Shown one piece after another: positions 934 through 44,492 of a stretch of 44,492 nt of DNA. The translations under genes were made by a program, and so were the position numbers. Each line of letters starts with the position of its first letter. Position 1 is the stretch's first letter. The notes under the pieces are model-generated. The model saw only the letters and a program-made list of their open reading frames with translations. It did no database searches and was not told where the DNA came from. The DNA lies in IMG/VR virus record IMGVR_UViG_3300036781_000327, positions 1 through 44,492 of that record; one strand, 5' to 3'. The DNA comes from a virus.

Positions 934-3477
934 TTAAACTGATACAGTTCCAGTAATTTGGATTGCTTGAATTGCTCCGGCAAGTGTTGCCTGGAATGAT
1001 ACATTTCTTAGGATCCTATTCGTTTTATCGATTGCAGGCACGTTAGCTGCTTTTGGAACGAAGATCTGATATTGAGGATCGGCTGCGATAAAATTATTAT
1101 CGACTCCCTGCTGAAGCGCTCTTCTAATTTGTGATTCCACCGCTGTGATACCTGAATCTGTGTATGGGATTTTTGGACTATTTACTAGGATGCTATAGAC
1201 ATAACTTTGGATCGTTGATGTAAGCCAATCTATTCCTCTAATGATGTCAATAAATTCTCCAGCTGCCATTGTTCCTCTTTGAGTGATTCCTACCCCTCCA
1301 ACATACTCGAAAGTATTGCAGTATTTATTGAATGCGTTGTTCTGTTGATTTGAGGTGAGATCCGAGTAGGAAATAGAATTTAGTTTTTTAAACATCCAAG
1401 TTTCTGACCCTGGAGTTAAAGGAAGACAATTCCCAAACCAAGCGCATTCAGGAAAGTCGCTTGCAGCCTCTTCATGGTAAATTACAAAAGTTCTTACGTA
1501 GCCTAAATTGCTGAAAATTGCAGCGATAGAAGTTGTATCTGTACCTGATGCTTGATTGATTATATTGGTATCGTCTGAGGCTGTGCCAAATATTTTAATC
1601 TGTGTTTCAATCCACGCTGCGATAGCTTCCACTGTCGCAACAGTCCTATCGGTGCATGCTAGAGCATACCAATCGTCATTTACGTCCTGGATAGCTTGTA
1701 GATCAGTTACTACAGCTGCACTAGGAGTATAAGGAGCTATGATTAACCCCTTCTGAATAACCATTGCTCCTACTGGACTTACTTGAATCAGGAATGTAGT
1801 AGTGGATGAATTTGCAGTCACTTCGAGCGATCCGTCCGAATTGTCGGTTGATCCTATTATTCCTGAGAGAGGATTAGGGACTGTCAAACCATTCACTAAT
1901 ACAGGATTTAAGTTAGAATCCAAGAGGATCGGTGAGGAAATAGATGTGACAAGAGCTGCTGAAATTTGATCGTTATCCCCTACATTTTGAGGTGCTTGAT
2001 AAACGAACGAATTGCCATTAATAAGAACTGTATATGCTTGATTAGGGATAGCTTGCGTAATTACAACTCTAGCTTGATTAGGATTTGTGATATTCGTAGA
2101 TACTGCAAGTGTGTATGGGACTCCTGCAACATCTGCTGTGATTGAAAATGTTCCGTCAGGTGTTGATGGTGTCGACGCTGTCACCCCTAATGTCGCGGCA
2201 TTAATTGCTGTGACTAAAGCATCTGCAATTGTATTAGCATCCGTAGGCTGTGAAGTGTTTACAATTGCTGCTGTCGCTTGAGACGCTCCTAAAGTGACTA
2301 TGAACGAATTTATCACTCCAGCTTGATTTGGATTTGTTGAGATAGAAATAATATTGCTATTCGTTCCAGATACTACAGCTGTCGCTATTCCTGGCGAGTA
2401 TCCAACATTTAATTCGTCTTGAATCGCTGTTGCTATAGTTGTCATTGTTGCGGAACTACTTGAAGCAAATGCAAATCCGCCCTCTGAAATTGTGCATACA
2501 GGTTGACTTGCTCCTAAAGTCGTAATGACGCTATCTACTGTATTATCACCTGGATCTGTAAATACTACTGTGATCTGTCTAGCAGCTGTTACAGTTGCGC
2601 TTGCAACTCCTGTGGCTGTTGCTATTTTAGTAGCTACTAGCCCTATAGTCGTCGCTTGATCGCTTGTAAATGTGTTGGCGCTTAATGCAACTCCATTCAC
2701 CGTAGCTACAATTGAATTTAATGTAACAAAATCTATGTCAAAGTTTAGAATACTTGTAATAGTTCCTATTTCCGATCCATTTAAACTTACATTAATTAAG
2801 TTTCCAGTAACTAATGGGCCTGTATAAGTAATGGTAGCTGATGGTTGGGATGCTCCCCCTGTAGTGACTACACTATTTACAATTGCACTTGCAGCAGAAA
2901 CAAATATAACAGTGATGGCATTTGTTCCGTTAGAGACAGCTGAAGTAACGCTTGCATCTAAAGCAATTTCTGTTGCAATTGCTGCTAAGGTAGTCGCATT
3001 ATTTGTGATAAAAGCAACCGATGAAAGAGGTGCACCATTTAATGTCACAAGGGTGGAATTTCCAGTGACGAATGGTATATTGAATGTTATCACTGAAGTG
3101 TTTATTCCGCTTAAGGTAACGACTGAATCTGTAACCGAAGTTGATGAATTTATAGTTACCGCAGTGCTATTAATTGTAGTTGTGTAAGTTTTTGCTGGAA
3201 GATCAGTTTCGACCTCTATTCCTACAGTGTCAACTGTTCGTCTTCCGATATAAATATATTGAGGTGTAATCGATTGAGAGAATACATCTTGAGCAGCAAT
3301 ATATTCTAGATCATAGGGATTGAAATCTTGTGCGACTTGCTGCATATTAGTGTATTTTCGAATCAAGTCGTTGAAATTTTTACTTGTTCCAAGAATCAGA
3401 GGAATCCCGAAACCTTGTTCAGAAACGCTTTGCGTCTGCCTTGTAATCTGTACATTTACGATGTCGCTTAATGGCAT
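934..3477 (-). CDS. Tail sheath protein (DUF3383-like) with multiple inserted beta domains
   Basis: This 847-residue protein is the contractile sheath. Residues 1-95 ([34 protein letters not shown]) and roughly 575-847 ([30 protein letters not shown]) form the DUF3383 sheath core. DUF3383 sheaths are usually about 350-500 residues; the excess is an insertion at about 97-570 rich in Thr, Ser, Val and Ala. It contains at least two clear and one degenerate copy of an approximately 85-residue unit ending in V-T-x-GASQ (about 136-218, 249-330 and 335-405), followed by two more divergent beta segments. Related units occur in the decoration protein, head-closure protein and baseplate J. By position the insertions would decorate the tail exterior, which is an inference. 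Confidence 0.88.
2263..2475 (-). repeat. Inserted beta domain, degenerate sheath copy 3
   Basis: Sheath residues about 335-405 keep the [10 protein letters not shown] helix-like segment, a [10 protein letters not shown] strand and a closing FIVTLGASQ. They lack the N-terminal NG-turn strand pair. Confidence 0.5.
2488..2733 (-). repeat. Inserted beta domain, sheath copy 2
   Basis: Sheath residues about 249-330 carry [29 protein letters not shown] and [14 protein letters not shown]. It has the same order of motifs as copy 1. The DQATT[IM]GLIVA segment also recurs in baseplate J copy 2. Confidence 0.72.
2824..3072 (-). repeat. Inserted beta domain, sheath copy 1
   Basis: Sheath residues about 136-218 carry [12 protein letters not shown], then [11 protein letters not shown], then [12 protein letters not shown], and end in [11 protein letters not shown]. 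The central SAVSNGT[ND]xIT segment is almost identical in the decoration protein at 7337-7597, so the two copies share recent ancestry. Confidence 0.75.
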
Positions 3478-3485
3478 AATTCCCT

Positions 3486-4028
3486 CTAAGTTGGTGGAAT
3501 TGTAAAACTTTCATCATACACTATATTGCCAGAAGGATCTTTAAAAATCTCTTCTAAAACTACGGTGCTAATCACTCCAAGAGTATCGGTATAAACGTTG
3601 GCAATTCTAAACATTACGTCGAATGATGCTCGTTGTTCGTATCGTGAATCTATAAGGTAGGTTATATCTGCAATTGGTTGCCAATTGAAGAATACAATTC
3701 CTACAGCTCGAAGTGAGTCTAAAACCGACTGCTTTTGTAAGGATGTTTGAAGATTTTGTAGGAGAGTAATTGGATCGCCTCCATACCCTTGTACTTGCAG
3801 AGTAAATTCACGATCCCCGACCATCTGAGCTACCCCTGTATTATCAAGAGGATCCTGCGTATAATCCCAACCAATCTGTACTACTGATGCTATATAGAGA
3901 GAAATGTAGTCCACTGTAGGGCGAGGTGCATTAGGGTATAACCATAAGGCAGGGACGCCTGAAGGAAGATTAGCTATAGCCCAATCGTATAGATTTTTTC
4001 TGACATCCATAAAATCTATTGCCATCAT
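3486..4028 (-). CDS. Tail terminator / neck protein (LIC_12616-like)
   Basis: This 180-residue protein resembles the phage neck or tail-terminator family found next to DUF3383 sheath genes. It starts [20 protein letters not shown] and has a [14 protein letters not shown] strand, [11 protein letters not shown], and a late [16 protein letters not shown] segment typical of terminator folds. Its job would be to cap the tail and join it to the head. The start overlaps the previous gene's TGA (ATGATGA context), so translation is coupled. A second ATG follows immediately. Confidence 0.7.
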
Positions 4029-4699
4029 AGGACTCCTGGTAATGGGTGGAGCCTTAACGCAATAAATTTATAGTGGTTGATAATGTTAAACGTAGCATTA
4101 TTTTGCCAATCATTAATATTTATGACTTCGTAGACGATCCCTGTAAATGGAGCTTTTAAAACGGTGACTTGATCGGGATTCTGTGTTGTGACTCCATAGA
4201 TTTCAGTGGATGAATAGAATTTGAATTCTGCTTTATCTCTCCTACCTTCTGGCACTAAGGCTACATCTTTTCCAAGAGGCTGAACGCTTGCTGTAGCTGG
4301 AATAATCAGTGGAGAATTAGAAATCGTAATAGATGGCTGAGAAGCACCCCCAGTAATAGTGAAAGCATTAACCACAGATAGCGACGGCTGGAGAGGAATG
4401 ATAGTAATCGTTTTAAGGTCATCACTTATATCCGCTTGTTGAATATTTGGTTGTGCTTCAATTGCCAACTTAAGTAATCCCATAGTAATAGTGGCATTAG
4501 TAGTAAAAGGTATAGGAGTAAGTACGATAGTGTTAATAGTAATATTAATGGTATTGCCGGTAATGACAATAGCAGATAAAGTAATCTGAGAACCTTCTTG
4601 CCAAATTCCATTTAGATAAAATCCATCGGTAAATCTTCTGATCTGAATAGGAGTCCTAAAAACTTCGAAAGGGGTAAGCGGTGCAAATGGTGGAATCAT
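4025..4699 (-). CDS. Head-closure / neck protein carrying an inserted beta domain
   Basis: This 224-residue protein sits between the connector and terminator genes. Its flanks (FEVFRTPIQIRRFTDGFYLN, then ASVQPLGKDVALVPEGRR and YKFIALRLH) look like a compact neck protein of about 135 residues in which GxW-EGS is followed directly by an xASVQPL segment. Residues about 40-128 interrupt this with the same GGASQ-ending unit found in the sheath. The boundaries look clean, suggesting domain insertion at a surface loop. The start overlaps the upstream stop as ATGA. Confidence 0.7.
   Translation of the reverse strand: MIPPFAPLTPFEVFRTPIQIRRFTDGFYLNGIWQEGSQITLSAIVITGNTINITINTIVLTPIPFTTNATITMGLLKLAIEAQPNIQQADISDDLKTITIIPLQPSLSVVNAFTITGGASQPSITISNSPLIIPATASVQPLGKDVALVPEGRRDKAEFKFYSSTEIYGVTTQNPDQVTVLKAPFTGIVYEVININDWQNNATFNIINHYKFIALRLHPLPGVL
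4316..4582 (-). repeat. Inserted beta domain, head-closure copy
   Basis: Residues about 40-128 carry ITGNTINITINTIVLTPI, a TITMGLLKLAIEA segment and [19 protein letters not shown]. They match the sheath and baseplate J units motif by motif. Confidence 0.75.
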
Positions 4700-6991: not shown

Positions 6992-7792
6992 CTACGGCTG
7001 GTTAATATCTAATACAGCTAATCCACCAGCGCTAGCGCCGATCAACCATCTTACTTGAGTAGAGGGTAGTAGAATAGCGTTTCCACTGTCTGAATCGCTT
7101 CTAAATCCACCGACCTGTGGAAAGGATAGAGTGGGCGCGATCCTCCAATAAACTGGACTATCTGACGTTACTGTATTTTCTGCGAATACCCAAATTTGTC
7201 CTCTTGCCATTACCGGAACTGCGTCTCCAATGAAATAAGGCGAGCCTCCTGCTGAGCCTTGAGGGCCGAGTAGGTTCATCTTATTTTGAATGTATACTGC
7301 CACACCGTAGAATACGTTATCATTCGTATAAGCTGAAGTCCAAGTAACCGCTGATCCGCTACTTGTTACAAACGTTGCAGAGACTGCATAGCCTTGTTCT
7401 GCTGTGATCGTAATTGTATCAGTTCCATTAGATACTGCTGAGGCAATAAAATCTTGAGCAGCAATAAGGGCAGCAATCGCAGTAAGAGTTGCAGCATTAG
7501 ATGTGGCATAAACCACTGGAGTCAATGCAATACCATTTAGGGTAACAACCGTAGAGTTTGCAGCTGATAAAGGAGCACTTGCAGTAACTGCCACGATATC
7601 GACGTGAGGAAGTCTCACTTGCATATCTTGACCGATAACTTTTGCTACTCCTAATCCGATGGGAATAATTTCGACAGCAGCTACAGGAGATAGAACTTCT
7701 CCGTAAGTGATATCGTAAATCTGACCTGCGCTGGCTGCTTGAGCCATCAAAAAATTGTAACTGGTCTGTCCTGAAACTGGAGGAAATGACAT
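6992..7792 (-). CDS. Structural cement / decoration protein with inserted beta domain
   Basis: This 266-residue protein lies between protease and capsid genes, where the cement protein of these phages is encoded. The flanks (SGQTSYNFLMAQAASAGQIY, then YIQNKMNLLGPQG, DAVPVMARGQIWVFAENTV and LIGASAGGLAVLDINQP) form the cement core, which usually totals about 150-180 residues. Residues about 66-152 are an extra beta unit, TVVTLNGIALTPVVY then AATLTAIAALI and SAVSNGTDTITI, nearly identical in part to sheath copy 1. The protein would trimerise on the capsid surface; external display of the insert is inferred. Confidence 0.78.
   Translation of the reverse strand: MSFPPVSGQTSYNFLMAQAASAGQIYDITYGEVLSPVAAVEIIPIGLGVAKVIGQDMQVRLPHVDIVAVTASAPLSAANSTVVTLNGIALTPVVYATSNAATLTAIAALIAAQDFIASAVSNGTDTITITAEQGYAVSATFVTSSGSAVTWTSAYTNDNVFYGVAVYIQNKMNLLGPQGSAGGSPYFIGDAVPVMARGQIWVFAENTVTSDSPVYWRIAPTLSFPQVGGFRSDSDSGNAILLPSTQVRWLIGASAGGLAVLDINQP
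7337..7597 (-). repeat. Inserted beta domain, decoration-protein copy
   Basis: Residues about 66-152 of the cement protein match the sheath unit. The shared segments are STxVTLNGxxL, ATLxAIA and SAVSNGTxxIT. The GASQ end is replaced by SSGSAVTW. Confidence 0.75.
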
Positions 7793-19118: not shown

Positions 19119-19865
19119 TTAAGCAACAATTGCCCAGTTGACAGTTGAAGTATCGGTTACTTGAGAAGCAACCGGAGTAAATCCAACACCGCTATCAATT
19201 GTAGTAAGGAATGCTGATGCTACAGTCACAGTTCCCAATGAAACGACTGTATAGGTAACAACACACCCAGTGATTGCTGCTGTCGTTAAAATTTTTGCGT
19301 GAGTTCCGCTTGAAAGGGTAAATGATCCTTTTCTTTCAGCAGCTCCTGCTCCAGCAGTTAGGATCGTTCCACCTCCTGAGGGGAATGTCATTGCTCCGGT
19401 TGTATCTGCCATTGTGACAGCAGAGCTTTGCAATAATTTTCCTGTCGTTGAATCAAATCGTGGAACTGTATTATCTACCGTAGATGCTGGCCCCTGGACT
19501 ACATTAGCTGTAAGAACCCCTGAATCCTCAAGTGTCACTCCATCTGTTGAAGAAAATGCAGCTAAATGATGAGCTGTTGAAGTGCCTGGCCCAACGACTA
19601 CTTCATCGGTTGCAATGCCTGAATCTTCTAAAAGCTGACCTGTTGTGTCTGCAAATGCAGATAGATTATGAGCGGTTGAACTCACTGGCCCTACTACGTT
19701 CCCTTCTGCGTCTCCAGCTCCCCACGCAACTCCTAAATCAGCTGTTGAATCTGCAAATAATGCTTGATTGTCTGCTCCTGGAAGCAATGGTGTGGGTGCC
19801 CCTCCACCGCCTGGCGCGACGAATAGAGTTCCTTTTTCGAATAACATATTGTTTGGTTCAGTCAT
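19119..19865 (-). CDS. Tail fibre-like repeat protein
   Basis: This 248-residue protein has a glycine/proline-rich start (FVAPGGGGAPTPLLPG), then about three repeats of roughly 33 residues built around GPxSSTAHNLSAFADTTGQ and LLEDSGIAT. A beta-rich C-terminus (FTLSSGTHAKILTTAAITGC) follows. Such repeats are typical of phage fibre shafts and of proteins on the virion surface. It is last of three minus-strand genes placed away from the baseplate. Confidence 0.65.
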   Translation of the reverse strand: MTEPNNMLFEKGTLFVAPGGGGAPTPLLPGADNQALFADSTADLGVAWGAGDAEGNVVGPVSSTAHNLSAFADTTGQLLEDSGIATDEVVVGPGTSTAHHLAAFSSTDGVTLEDSGVLTANVVQGPASTVDNTVPRFDSTTGKLLQSSAVTMADTTGAMTFPSGGGTILTAGAGAAERKGSFTLSSGTHAKILTTAAITGCVVTYTVVSLGTVTVASAFLTTIDSGVGFTPVASQVTDTSTVNWAIVA

Positions 19866-21902: not shown

Positions 21903-22580
21903 TTAGGTTGGTGGCTTATCTGTAAGGCATTCAATAAATGCTCCTATCTTTCCAGCATGATCTAATTTTACTACTGGATCGATCCAAATCCTAAATCCTG
22001 CTTGCCTTGCTCTTCTGCAAAAAACATAATCTTCACCCCAAAATTCACCTTCCCATAATTCAACAGCAAATAAATGATATCCTGAAGTGTGCTTGAGTGA
22101 TGGATCTTTTGGCTCGTAATAAAGTTCGGGAAAGAAATCTATCATATTTTGGATGACTTCCCGTTTAACAAGCATAAATCCAGCAGGGATATATTCCATC
22201 TCTAATAGACATTTTTCTGATGGCTTCATTCGTTTTTCTGGCCCTTCGTATACTCCTCTAAAAAGGAAGTAATTTTCTGGGCCTCTTGCAGGATAAAGAG
22301 CAGCTACGAAATCCTCATTATGATCAATCAATCTCTTAATATCTAAGGGATTCCAGCCAATATCTGAATCAATCATCATTATGTGAGTGGCGTCGGTTTC
22401 AAGGAATGCTTTGAGTAAATCGTTCCTTTCTCTTACTAGAAGGGAACCTGATGTCGTCACTCTCACAATCGTTTCAATTGCGTTTGCAGCTAGATAAAGG
22501 CGTGTGTCGCAAAGTGAACATGCATATTGAACGTTAACTTTACCATCAAAAGCAGGTGTAGCGATAAATATTTTCGTCAT
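21903..22580 (-). CDS. Glycosyltransferase, GT-A fold
   Basis: This 225-residue enzyme has the features of a nucleotide-sugar transferase: IFIATPAFDGKV at the N-terminus, LLVRERNDLLKAFLETDATH, the metal-binding DSD at residues 71-73 (MMIDSDIGW), IPAGFMLVKREV, and GEDYVFCRRARQAGFRIWID near the end. Phage genes of this type can modify host surface sugars, DNA bases or virion proteins. Here the ATG overlaps the stop of the 636-residue fibre gene (ATGA), which suggests that the fibre or its receptor is the target; that is inference. Confidence 0.78.
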   Translation of the reverse strand: MTKIFIATPAFDGKVNVQYACSLCDTRLYLAANAIETIVRVTTSGSLLVRERNDLLKAFLETDATHIMMIDSDIGWNPLDIKRLIDHNEDFVAALYPARGPENYFLFRGVYEGPEKRMKPSEKCLLEMEYIPAGFMLVKREVIQNMIDFFPELYYEPKDPSLKHTSGYHLFAVELWEGEFWGEDYVFCRRARQAGFRIWIDPVVKLDHAGKIGAFIECLTDKPPT

Positions 22581-24487
22581 AGAGCCTTTATATATAGTGA
22601 TCGCTTAAAGTTAGTAGTCAATTCTACCGTAATGGCAAGATTATTGTCAGTAGGAACCTGAAATTGAGTTGCTGGGTTATAGGTGTACGTAATCGGGGAA
22701 GTCTGAATATTCGTTCCCCCATTTCCTCCAATGACAAATTGAGTGCTAGTTGCGACTGCTGCATTTATATTTGTATTTGTTGCCATAGTTTGGGATACCC
22801 AGGTTGTGGCATCTGTAGAAGTTAAAATTATTCCTGAAGTGCTTAAAGCACCTGCTGCTAAATAAATCCCTGAAGTATAGGTTAAGGCATTCAAACTAAA
22901 CGTTGTTGTGCTAGATCGTGTTGTCCAAGTGATTGCGTCAGTTGAGCTTGCAAGCACCCCTCCTGCACCTGAATATACGTAAACCGATCCATAAGTCAGT
23001 GCACTAATTTGAGAAGTTGTGCCACTAGTTTGCGTTGTCCATGTAAGTGCATTCGTTGAAGTTGCTAAAACGCCTCCTGCACCAGATGCTACAAATAATG
23101 AATTACCGAATATAATTGATGCAAAAGCAGAAGTAGTTGTCGATCCACCATTTGAAGTCCACGTTGTCCCATCGGTAGATGTTAATATTACATCTACTCC
23201 TGCTGCATAAAATCCAGAATTATAAATCACAGAATTTAAATTTTGAGTTGTTCCGCTAGTCCTGGAAGTCCATGTTATTCCGTCCGTTGAACTTTGAATA
23301 GACCCGTTTTGACCTACTGAAACATAGGCACTGTTTCCATAAGCTATACTAAAGATTGTAGATGAAGTTGCACTTGTTCTTGCTGTCCAAGTTGTTCCGT
23401 CTGCTGATGTTCCTACACCTCCATTGACAGTGCCATAAACATATAGGGAATTTCCAAAACCTACAGCATTTATAGCACTTACTGTATTGCTTATCCTTGT
23501 CGTCCAGGTGATTGCGTCAGTTGAACTAGATATTGATCCTCCTGATCCTACCCATACATACGCATTGCCATAAATTACACTATTAATTGCTGATGAACTT
23601 CCGCTTGTTCTGGAAGTCCAAGTGATCGCGTCAGTTGAAGTTGCTAGAGTTCCACCTGCACCAGCATAAACATAAACCCCCCCTGAACTATATGTTAATG
23701 CATTAATAGCAGAGGCGGTTCCTGAAGTCCTTGAAGTCCATGTTATTCCGTCGGTCGATGTGGCTATAACACCTCCTGCTGCCCCATACACATACGATGT
23801 TCCATAAATTACACTTTGTATAAGAGATGTAGTTCCTGGAGATCGTGCAGTCCATGTTAAAGCATCAGTACTAGTATTCAAAACTCCTGTTGAAACGGCT
23901 AAATATAATCCATTTCCAAAATTAAACGGTTTTGATCCCCCTCCTGCAATACTTGGAGTTCTTGTATTCCAGGTTATAGAATCGGTTGAAGTAACAATAG
24001 TCCCATTTGTTCCAACTGCTACATAAGTTGAATTTGCATATATTATAGCATTTAACGCCGAAATTGTTGGTGAAACTCTGGAAGTCCAAGTGATCGCGTC
24101 GGTTGAACTTAGAATTGTTCCAGCTGCCCCTACTGCACAATAAAGAACTCCATATGTTACACCGTTTAATGATTGAGCGGTTCCGCTTGTTCTGGAAGTC
24201 CATGTGATCGCATCAGTTGAAGTTCCTATTGCTCCACCATTGGCAACATTTACATAGAGTGAATTTCCAAAAGTTAGGGCGTTTGTTGCGTTCTGTGCTG
24301 TATGATTCGTCCACTGCGAACCTCCTGGATTGATTAAACCTAATCTCTGATAGAGAGCTGGATATGTCGATTGCAGATAAACTGAACCATCGCATTTTAG
24401 ATATTTGCTATTTAGGTATCCAACGCCTTGACCGTTTGCAAAATATCCTAGAGCTCCAATAGGGATACTGTCGTCATTATATGCCAT
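22577..24487 (-). CDS. Tail fibre with collar domain and about 13 beta-propeller-like repeats
   Basis: This 636-residue protein starts with a phage collar-like segment (DSIPIGALGYFANGQGVGYL, then YLKCDGSVYLQ and YPALYQRLG). From about residue 89 to 595 it holds some 13 repeats of about 40 residues. Each has S-T-D-x-[IT]-T-W-T-[ST]-R followed by a short turn, xINAxxYG and xVxVGxxGxI. The STDxxTW core resembles Asp-box (BNR) or YCF48-type blades, which form propellers that bind glycans. This is a likely receptor-binding protein. Confidence 0.78.
   Translation of the reverse strand: MAYNDDSIPIGALGYFANGQGVGYLNSKYLKCDGSVYLQSTYPALYQRLGLINPGGSQWTNHTAQNATNALTFGNSLYVNVANGGAIGTSTDAITWTSRTSGTAQSLNGVTYGVLYCAVGAAGTILSSTDAITWTSRVSPTISALNAIIYANSTYVAVGTNGTIVTSTDSITWNTRTPSIAGGGSKPFNFGNGLYLAVSTGVLNTSTDALTWTARSPGTTSLIQSVIYGTSYVYGAAGGVIATSTDGITWTSRTSGTASAINALTYSSGGVYVYAGAGGTLATSTDAITWTSRTSGSSSAINSVIYGNAYVWVGSGGSISSSTDAITWTTRISNTVSAINAVGFGNSLYVYGTVNGGVGTSADGTTWTARTSATSSTIFSIAYGNSAYVSVGQNGSIQSSTDGITWTSRTSGTTQNLNSVIYNSGFYAAGVDVILTSTDGTTWTSNGGSTTTSAFASIIFGNSLFVASGAGGVLATSTNALTWTTQTSGTTSQISALTYGSVYVYSGAGGVLASSTDAITWTTRSSTTTFSLNALTYTSGIYLAAGALSTSGIILTSTDATTWVSQTMATNTNINAAVATSTQFVIGGNGGTNIQTSPITYTYNPATQFQVPTDNNLAITVELTTNFKRSLYIKAL
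22703..24223 (-). repeat. Tandem coding repeats, about 13 x 40 residues
   Basis: The repeats are visible as recurring STDAITWTSR-type peptides spaced 36-44 residues apart. DNA such as GTGATCGCGTCAGTTGAA recurs nearly unchanged in several units, indicating recent duplication or conversion. Confidence 0.85.
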
Positions 24488-37954: not shown

Positions 37955-38120
37955 CGTCTAACCTATAAATCTCTCCATCCATTTCAGTATCGGCTTCCTG
38001 GCAAGCTTCACACAATGGATAATCAAAGTAATCACCTAAATTATCTCTAACTATTTTATTAATACAAGAATCTCTAATTAATGGTCTGCATTTATATGTT
38101 TTCTTTTCTTCTTCTACCAT
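37938..38120 (-). CDS. Small four-Cys protein in the baseplate region
   Basis: This 60-residue protein (starting MVEEEKKTYKCRPLIRDSCI) has four Cys (KC, SC and CEAC), likely a zinc site. The ATG overlaps the baseplate J stop (TAATG), which decides against the GTG at 38156. It overlaps the next gene by 17 bases. Function unknown. Confidence 0.58.
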   Translation of the reverse strand: MVEEEKKTYKCRPLIRDSCINKIVRDNLGDYFDYPLCEACQEADTEMDGEIYRLDDGRYT

Positions 38121-40126
38121 TATACTACCGTAACTAATATTCTGGATAAGTCCCACGCCGAAATTTCACTCTCCTCGATTATTATATCTGATGTACCAAA
38201 GGAAGGGGAATCAGTAGCGGTTGCTGTGGAAGCTATGACCATATTTCCGCTTGCAATTCCTGGCACTGTAAAAATTTGAGCTAGAACTCTCTGGAAAAGA
38301 ACGTCTATTCCTACACCCAAACTGTTTCCATAATTTAAGATTGCTAACGCTACTTGTTGAGTGCCATCTGAGGGGAATGTTTCTTCTGAATATAGTGTAA
38401 GAGCAACTTGAACCCATATGAAAATTTCTGTCGGTCTTGAGAAGAAAATCACTTGAGAATTTCCTTGTGAGTCAATAATCGTTATTCCATTTCCTGAGTT
38501 GACATTTCCAAAAGTCTCTATTCCAGCAGGCTTTGTAAGCCAAATTTGTTCAGCCACCGCTTGATCTGAACCACCCTCTACGACTGCCTCAAATGATTTA
38601 GGTGGTCTTCCGCCTTTGATTGATGCTGTCTGCGCTGTACCTGTTACTACAGCTGAATTAATGGTTAATACAGTAGCCTGAATAATATTTACAGTTACCG
38701 TCTGATTTCCAGTCCCTCCATAACTTGCAGATAATACTTGAGGAATCAACTCGAATTGAGCAACGATCAATCCCATCGTCGTAGCTTGATCGGTTGTAAA
38801 GCTCACTGAAAAATTTGAAACTGTATTATAGGTGATAGTAATTGTATCCCCTGAGGTGAATGGAAGAGGGAAAACAACTAAAATCGGTTCTTGCTGAAGA
38901 GTCACATTCTCGAAGACCGTCGCGCTTGTGACTCCTGGGACTTTCTGAAGTAAACCTGCTGTAATAGCCTCTACGGTTGCCGATCCTAATAGTTTGATAG
39001 AATTTTGTCTACGAATCCTAAGCTCTGCATCGGTTTCAGTGACTCGTCCTAATACTCCTGCAACCAGATTAGTGATTGTATTCCATCCTGCTAATGGGGT
39101 AATAATATTGGTTAATGTGCCAATTGGAGCTGGAATAGGGCCAAAGTTTTCTGCTAAAAAAGTAATGGGAGACGCTTGATAGATAATTTCTAGGTTAATG
39201 CCTGCGTTAGCAGAGAAGGGAACCGAGACATTAGTGGCATTAACCGTGATCGTGCCGTCCATATTGTCGACTACATTCCAAGGAGGTGATCCTGCATTTG
39301 CTATGAGTTTTAACTGAGCAGTGATCGCATTCTGATTCGCTGGAGCTATGAAAGTGATTACATTGGACGCCTGAGTTGCTCCTCCGGTTATCGATATGGA
39401 ATTGATGGTAACGCTCTTACCGGAAAGAGGAGTTATAGTAATAACATTTGTAGGAGTTGCTACTGCTGTGCAAACCGTTCCTGAACTGAATGCTTGGATC
39501 GCTGATGCTACGTCTGTTAGGGTCTGATTGCTGCTTGTATTATATGGGACTGCTGCTAGAGTAACTCCATTTATCGTGACTTTAATCGAATTGCTAGTAA
39601 CGAAAATAGGCCCTACATTTGAGAAGGTTATCACAGGTAACGAGTAGGTGAATACCGATCCATTCAGCAAAATAGTATAAGCTTGAGTTGTAACTGAGGT
39701 CACTTGAATTTTTACTATATCGGCATTTGTACGGCTTATCGTCCCTCCTACATTCGCAAAAAATGTGTCTCCAGTTGTAGGAAGTGAAGCTAATGAATTT
39801 ATTGGAATGTAAGTACCTTCTAATCCGGAAACTGTTGCTACAACCAACGTTTGAGTTGCTGGTAGTCTAGTGATTCCATTTAGCTGAACTACATTATCAA
39901 GTGAGATTCCAGAAGCAGAATTTGGATATTCGCTTAGATAAACATCGTCTAAATTTTCCCAAAGATCTGCATAAGCTTTGGCAAAAATCCCTATAAGCTG
40001 ACCACATACCGATTGAGGATCTGTATTTACATCGCCAAATTCAGCAATAAAAGCATTTTCAAGGGCTTGCTTTTCGTCAGCTAGTCGTGGCGTATTAAAG
40101 CCTTCTGGTGTCAAACCGAATGTCAT
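38120..40126 (-). CDS. Baseplate protein J with inserted beta domains
   Basis: This 668-residue wedge protein has J-family landmarks: MTFGLTPEGFNTPRLADEKQ, NTDPQSVCGQLIGIFAKAYA, GISLDNVVQLNGITRLPATQ, GRVTETDAELRIRRQNSIKL, KVPGVTSATVFENVT, KSFEAVVEGGSD and a C-terminal wedge region. Two units match the sheath and decoration inserts: about 172-258, nested inside an existing beta domain (AYTILLNGSVFTYSL up to GTITVNATN), and about 415-500, placed between ATVFENVT and GRPPKSFE. It joins the tube-sheath baseplate to the hub. Confidence 0.85.
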   Translation of the reverse strand: MTFGLTPEGFNTPRLADEKQALENAFIAEFGDVNTDPQSVCGQLIGIFAKAYADLWENLDDVYLSEYPNSASGISLDNVVQLNGITRLPATQTLVVATVSGLEGTYIPINSLASLPTTGDTFFANVGGTISRTNADIVKIQVTSVTTQAYTILLNGSVFTYSLPVITFSNVGPIFVTSNSIKVTINGVTLAAVPYNTSSNQTLTDVASAIQAFSSGTVCTAVATPTNVITITPLSGKSVTINSISITGGATQASNVITFIAPANQNAITAQLKLIANAGSPPWNVVDNMDGTITVNATNVSVPFSANAGINLEIIYQASPITFLAENFGPIPAPIGTLTNIITPLAGWNTITNLVAGVLGRVTETDAELRIRRQNSIKLLGSATVEAITAGLLQKVPGVTSATVFENVTLQQEPILVVFPLPFTSGDTITITYNTVSNFSVSFTTDQATTMGLIVAQFELIPQVLSASYGGTGNQTVTVNIIQATVLTINSAVVTGTAQTASIKGGRPPKSFEAVVEGGSDQAVAEQIWLTKPAGIETFGNVNSGNGITIIDSQGNSQVIFFSRPTEIFIWVQVALTLYSEETFPSDGTQQVALAILNYGNSLGVGIDVLFQRVLAQIFTVPGIASGNMVIASTATATDSPSFGTSDIIIEESEISAWDLSRILVTVV
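38627..38884 (-). repeat. Inserted beta domain, baseplate J copy 2 (diverged)
   Basis: Residues about 415-500 carry FTSGDTITITYNTVSNFSVS, DQATTMGLIVAQFE and INSAVVTGTAQTASI. It keeps the order of strands and the DQATT segment of sheath copy 2 but lost the GASQ motif. Confidence 0.58.
39353..39613 (-). repeat. Inserted beta domain, baseplate J copy 1
   Basis: Residues about 172-258 carry FVTSNSIKVTINGVTLAAVP, QTLTDVASAI and ISITGGATQASNVITF. It is nested within another domain, which marks it as a later insertion. Confidence 0.75.
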
Positions 40127-44126: not shown

Positions 44127-44492
44127 CTATTTTTTTCCGATTTTTCTTCTTGCCACCTCTTCTAGATCAATTCGCATGTCAATTAGTGCATTTGCTCGAT
44201 ATAGGTCGTCAATATTCCATGTCGTCTCTAACTCTATAAGGGTTGCCATTCCTTCAATAATTAAACGCCATAAGGCATATTCCTGTCGCAATTCTTCGTG
44301 AAGGTTCTTTTCGTAGTTTGTGCCGGAATTGTCATTTGTTCTGTAAATAGGTTGCCAATACCGATCATTGAAAAAAAATTTGCGAAATTCACCTCTATCA
44401 CAAAGAAGACTACCTCGTATAATCCTGCTATATCCCCTGCAAACTCTATGTCAATGGTAGGAGCTGTTAATTCTTGACCATTTTTTCTGACT
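44127..44492 (-). CDS. Tail assembly chaperone, C-terminal part with -1 frame extension
   Basis: This continues the gene from base 1 (44366 equals base 1). The zero frame stops at 44261, giving the 161-residue G form. After a -1 slip, the frame stays open as NDRYWQPIYRTNDNSG, LHEELRQEYALWRLIIEG, IDDLYRANALIDMRIDLEE and ends at TAG 44129-44127, giving a 206-residue GT form. The extension is helical and charged, as GT-type tails that contact the tape measure are. Confidence 0.72.
44366..44492. repeat. Terminal direct repeat (circular-contig overlap), right copy
   Basis: This is an exact copy of bases 1-127. Joining 44365 to base 1 restores an uninterrupted tail assembly chaperone gene on the minus strand, which supports circular closure. 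Confidence 0.95.

Follow-up and report, generated by a model that had tools for sequence, protein, structure and literature searches.

Promiscuous accessory domains on virions are already known as a kind from the immunoglobulin-like (Ig-like) domains of phages, treated by Fraser et al. 2006 (as cited in PMC10385173). These domains, with Hoc and the sheath domains of PMC9230969 as examples, are small insertions in several virion surface proteins, vary among related phages, and have been proposed to bind cell surfaces weakly. Extra sheath domains sit away from the tube, and the published trend is for multi-domain sheaths to belong to large phages (PMC9230969), while gp24 of phage E217, the family namesake of the cement protein discussed below, forms protrusions on the capsid surface (PMC10329688). 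Here we describe a domain of about 84-85 residues that likewise occurs in several unrelated virion proteins, with eight families represented, and varies among relatives, but that differs from Ig-like domains in having a helix between its hairpin and its strands.

The window, by which we mean the whole stretch of DNA analysed (44,492 nucleotides), carries an exact 127-bp direct repeat at both ends, leaving 44,365 unique bases. The ORFs at its two ends correspond to separate parts of a single Criblamydia gene, a tail assembly chaperone, which thus appears to span the terminal-repeat junction. The repeat and this gene together indicate that the 44-kb genome is complete, and therefore that the finding of four unit-bearing proteins and no others applies to the entire phage. 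Its virion genes are those of a contractile-tailed phage: a DUF3383 sheath (PF11863 at 2e-26, PHROG_205 at 2e-99, and Foldseek against DUF3383-type sheaths at E 1e-23), a cement protein of the E217 gp24/Pam3 gp6 type, a head-joining protein, a PF09950-type capsid and a gpJ wedge. Two other repetitive proteins are encoded here: at 22577-24487 a 636-residue tail protein with many TSTDxxTWTSRTSG repeats (DUF6242 match) after a collar-like segment, and at 19119-19865 a 248-residue protein with several GPxSTAHxLAAFxxTxGxxLEDSGV-type repeats and no PHROG match. The features that concern us are the following.

1-127, no strand: direct terminal repeat, left copy, exact match to 44366-44492
934-3477, minus strand: DUF3383 tail sheath, 847 aa, carrying units S1, S2 and S3 and native repeats N1 and N2
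1774-2043, minus strand: native sheath repeat N2, aa 479-568, with a counterpart in 9zdk gp76
2053-2253, minus strand: native sheath repeat N1, second part, aa 409-475, from the sheath model
2254-2478, minus strand: unit S3, second part (helix and strands), sheath aa 334-408, profile positions 22-84
2479-2748, minus strand: unit S2, sheath aa 244-333, inside the S3 hairpin
2749-2820, minus strand: unit S3, first part (hairpin), sheath aa 220-243
2821-3090, minus strand: unit S1, sheath aa 130-219
3106-3198, minus strand: native sheath repeat N1, first part (hairpin), aa 94-124, from model secondary structure; a single uninterrupted native repeat in relatives such as L034/L035
4310-4588, minus strand: neck unit, aa 38-130 of the head-joining/neck protein (gene 4025-4699)
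7328-7591, minus strand: cement unit, aa 68-155 of the cement protein (gene 6992-7792)
38609-38884, minus strand: unit J2, J aa 415-506, between the family segments ENxT and GGRPPKSF
39179-39340, minus strand: native J repeat, second part, aa 263-316
39341-39631, minus strand: unit J1, aa 166-262 of baseplate wedge J (gene 38120-40126), inside the native ING repeat
39632-39688, minus strand: native J repeat, first part (hairpin), aa 147-165
44366-44492, no strand: direct terminal repeat, right copy, exact match to the left copy

The original prediction, made from the letters alone, was that one domain sits in four different virion proteins, in at least six copies with two or three of them in the sheath. 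This is borne out: we find seven copies, three in the sheath, one in the capsid cement, one in the head-joining neck protein and two in baseplate wedge J, all on the minus strand and within about 20 bases of where the sheath, decoration, head-closure and baseplate copies had been placed. Three lines of evidence agree. A genome search with window positions 2263-3072 as the query returned the four non-sheath copies (E 1e-4 to 4e-10), and the four host proteins align to one another across the unit stretches (E 1e-7 to 1e-19). The whole-genome profile search, proposed beforehand as a check, matched only sheath, J, neck and cement (E 1e-62 to 1e-25) when run with a profile refined on relatives; among the remaining window ORFs, capsid, portal and terminase included, it gave no further copy, the next-best ORF standing at 0.46.

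AlphaFold2 modelled S1, with 73 aligned units as input, at a mean pLDDT of 96.2 and a pTM of 0.88, as a beta-hairpin with an NG turn, a helix, beta strands and a closing GASQ turn (strands 2-4 and 13-18, a 13-residue helix at 32-44, and strands 49-54, 59-64, 72-78 and 86-88). The expectation of one fold for all units holds for S1, S2 and S3 in the models; the neck, cement and J copies would adopt it too, since they share the profile with S1. An Ig beta-sandwich is rejected, because the model shows hairpin-helix-strands and antibody or Ig-type Foldseek matches reach a TM of about 0.35 or less; no Ig or fn3 model of Pfam fits the units either (fn3_5 at E 0.09), and Pfam holds no model for the unit. 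Against solved structures the S1 model gave no Foldseek match at E 0.001, and the best ones are weak: T7-type nozzle domains (TM 0.63), flagellin, and chains of sheaths or connectors. One strong match was found among predicted viral structures (BFVD), the 773-residue protein A0A7S5REQ2 (E 2e-5, TM 0.83), which is probably the sheath of Rhizobium phage RHph_I42, as that protein has the same length and carries the unit at E 4e-21. The flagellin hook IN motif (PF07196) resembles the unit in its pattern of NG/ING hairpin, helix and strand; PF07196 nevertheless matches only 3 of the 73 units, and weakly (best E 1.6e-5), leaving 70 without a match, and FliC and FliD occur among the weak fold matches at E >0.4 and TM <0.5. 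Charged residues (DEKR) make up 4.6% of the window units versus 10.6-16.8% of the host cores. The best conserved columns (N15, G16, T31 and G76) are turn and helix-cap residues and form no polar patch, and thus do not point to any specific site for a ligand.

The units are inserted not only into host proteins but also into one another. The whole-sheath model (pLDDT 86.8, pTM 0.64) contains five hairpin-helix-strand domains with an identical order of secondary structure: N1, S1, S3 split by S2, and N2. In this model native repeat N1 encloses S1 and S3, and the hairpin of S3 in turn encloses S2, which adds two nestings to the one foreseen in J, where J1 indeed splits a native ING repeat. Native ING repeats, as found in DUF3383 sheaths and in gpJ, share the order of elements with the unit in the sheath model, but are shorter and lack the GASQ closure. 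A common ancestry of unit and native repeat may be argued from alignments that are suggestive only: hhalign of the unit with the native repeat scored 19.4 (P 0.001) versus 18.0 for the best of 20 column shuffles, and the unit profile matches 9zdk gp76 at E 0.008.

To see how far the unit extends, IMG/VR was scanned twice with unit alignments of tighter groups, and the matched proteins were classified. This placed the unit in eight virion-protein families across many phages: the cement family PF22758; a second decoration family, PF09956, weakly and just under its cut-off; the neck (head-joining) protein; the DUF4054 connector; the tail terminator PF23961; the DUF3383 sheath, at several sites; the PF04984/phrog_23 sheath, with one example on a 205-kb contig and another, of 870 residues, that carries at least two units; and gpJ. 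No family match was obtained for a few small proteins with the unit (e.g. L130/L135). Among cultured phages, BLAST of S1 alone returned nothing at E 0.01, and BLAST of the consensus unit returned only the four Rhizobium phages RHph_I42, N42, N46 and N28_1, so that the unit is either rare in such phages or has diverged too far for BLAST to detect. The sheaths of these four phages carry true members of the unit (I42 at a profile E of 4e-21), but belong to another sheath lineage, PF04984/phrog_23, and their annotation is silent on it.

Relatives were collected by IMG/VR scans with the sheath and capsid proteins, at capsid identities from 93% down to 35%. Among the sheath lengths are 343, 431, 626-630, 718-738 and 829-847 residues, the number of units runs from 0 to 3, and sheath proteins with and without a given unit are about 60-75% identical. 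S1 is missing with its flanks joined in L009/L011 (L009, L011 and L020 being on one contig), S2 is missing in L008 and L017, and the S3 domain of L008 is uninterrupted. Within the nearest capsid (MCP) clade alone, the sheath carries three units in the window, two in L017 (95% MCP identity) and one in L018. The neck unit is present in the clade of the window and in L030-L033, and is missing in L025-type phages, where a 118-residue protein remains; none was found in the Chlamydiota elements. J lacks both J1 and J2 in L034/L035 and carries three units in L033, with a tandem pair at the J1 site. Further sites are occupied elsewhere: in the sheath, a second N1 loop (L023), a core loop (L047/L050/L051) and the N-terminus (L056 and L140), and in the cement protein a second loop (L053 and L140). 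The cement unit is the exception, being nearly fixed within the lineage: of 45 members scored, 34 have it, and shorter cement proteins lack it.

These empty sites in sheath, neck and J mean that the units there are insertions or losses and not fixed family parts. The possibility that each host family simply owns the domain, on which the original prediction would have fallen, is thereby set aside for all but the cement protein. The clean insertion between conserved family segments, which had also been noted, is supported as well. Other modules occur as well. The sheaths of L049, L054 and L057 carry a different insertion (DGxFxIxxDGxxxDITGLDFSxxxxLDxVAxxIQ), so there may be competition among several types of module for similar loops. 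Cement proteins of 259-287 residues in L040, L048 and L061 have no detectable unit, which suggests other inserts, and at 5702-9840 of L059 four ORFs near one another match the cement core profile, which suggests cement gene duplication.

So what would such a module do? We consider it probable that the unit is a self-folding insertion domain of about 84 residues, planted in outward loops of virion proteins, and most likely serving as a contact module of low specificity. Its hosts in the window are exclusively head-surface, neck, sheath and baseplate proteins, and the units would be displayed on the outside of these parts; surface display is favoured by this placement, by the published positions of cement and sheath domains, by how fast the units turn over and by the resemblance to the case of Ig-like domains. 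Copies would be brought in by rare illegitimate recombination and set in frame into surface loops of virion proteins that face outwards, the loops of earlier copies among them, and would persist where a hairpin loop tolerates a domain. On the virion exterior they may then make weak contacts with the host cell or with surrounding material, as proposed for phage Ig-like domains, from which the adhesive role is drawn by analogy.

A rival reading, unlikely in our judgement, is that the units act as structural cement or spacer, touching neighbouring copies or subunits and stabilising capsid, sheath and baseplate without any outside ligand. Stabilisation has been offered as the alternative to adhesion for sheath accessory domains (PMC9230969), one of the host proteins is itself a cement protein, and the conserved columns are structural. 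However, both the number and the site of the units vary among phages with nearly the same capsid protein, which is unexpected for a part essential to assembly, and the neck functions either with or without its unit. We find it distinctly improbable that tolerant loops occasionally gain a compact domain to no benefit at all, with nesting reflecting tolerance only. Such neutral accretion would fit the nesting in hairpin loops, the variable copy number and the lack of a conserved ligand patch, but not the long retention of the fold and of the invariant N, T and G positions, the several ancient sites (the neck copies form a clade with support 98/97), or a spread across eight families that is confined to virion proteins.

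The copies had originally been proposed to be young, from the SAVSNGT[ND]xIT peptide. A tree of 87 units over 84 columns leaves many deep forks without resolution, and groups the copies by host site and not by genome (14 label changes versus a shuffled mean of 50). Paralogues within a genome are no more alike than those across genomes in 9 of 10 site pairs. Because of this grouping, the missing within-genome excess, the short DNA matches and the differing codons, most copies are to be read as old and inherited in place, with a few genuine moves between genes: the extra L023 sheath copy falls inside the cement clade (support 100/95), the cement and sheath copies of L039 pair with each other (100/97), and cement copies are scattered over several regions of the tree. 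Recent copying together with ongoing gene conversion among the copies of this genome, for which one could cite that peptide common to S1 and cement, the small within-genome excess of the cement-neck pair (0.398 vs 0.378) and the poor placement of the window S1 in the tree, is very hard to credit and on the DNA of the window is already contradicted, since the longest exact match between any two copies is 11 bases, the codons of SAVSNGT differ between sheath and cement at most positions, synonymously, and nine other site pairs lack any such excess.

The closest cellular relatives of this phage are in Chlamydiota genomes and on a Criblamydia plasmid. In a plasmid collection the consensus unit matched one record, a Criblamydia sequanensis plasmid, on which the entire virion module is found with its genes in the same order and with cement, sheath and J units. 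In all, 48 ORFs of the window, a number that includes some overlapping antisense frames, have matches on this plasmid or on two related elements, the capsid at 78% and the terminase at 68%. A scan of 84,980 species with a capsid pattern returned only a Rhabdochlamydiaceae MAG, and among 234 Chlamydiota genomes the capsid gene is present in 2 and units in 4, the frames being mostly of a length that suits a sheath, cement or J protein. With relatives of 78% capsid identity in Chlamydiota, the host of the window phage is probably a chlamydia-like bacterium, judged from these sequence matches. Near-whole-phage relatives (L064, L066, L099-L101, L103) correspond to the Criblamydia sequanensis plasmid and to 81-96 kb contigs of two Chlamydiota genomes, and a tailed-phage or phage-plasmid lineage of Chlamydiota is probable. 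For plasmids of Criblamydia and Parachlamydia massiliensis, Kostlbacher 2021 noted a set of putative prophage genes (PMC7846284); the matching passages of that paper on this phage-gene group mention neither the virion module nor the domain. On the Criblamydia plasmid (NZ_LK031773.1; 1-8.6 kb, 27-42 kb and 51-54 kb) phage genes are mixed with large gene clusters for resistance to copper, heavy metals and arsenic.

Within the open-access literature searched, neither the domain family nor its nesting nor its occurrence in eight families appears to have been described. We lean, if only slightly, towards regarding it as an unmodelled non-Ig family that acts as a general plug-in of contractile phages, occupying surface loops of at least eight families, nesting in its own hairpin, giving a 44-kb phage a jumbo-like number of sheath domains, and in this lineage forming a coat of Chlamydiota phages. 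The unit shows that the Ig-like domain is not the sole promiscuous accessory domain on phage particles, and a nested sheath of 847 residues in a 44-kb genome breaks the large-phage trend of PMC9230969. Sheaths with 0, 1, 2 and 3 units, together with preserved empty sites, allow the accretion of domains in a virion protein to be read step by step, and a tailed-phage lineage associated with Chlamydiota is indicated.
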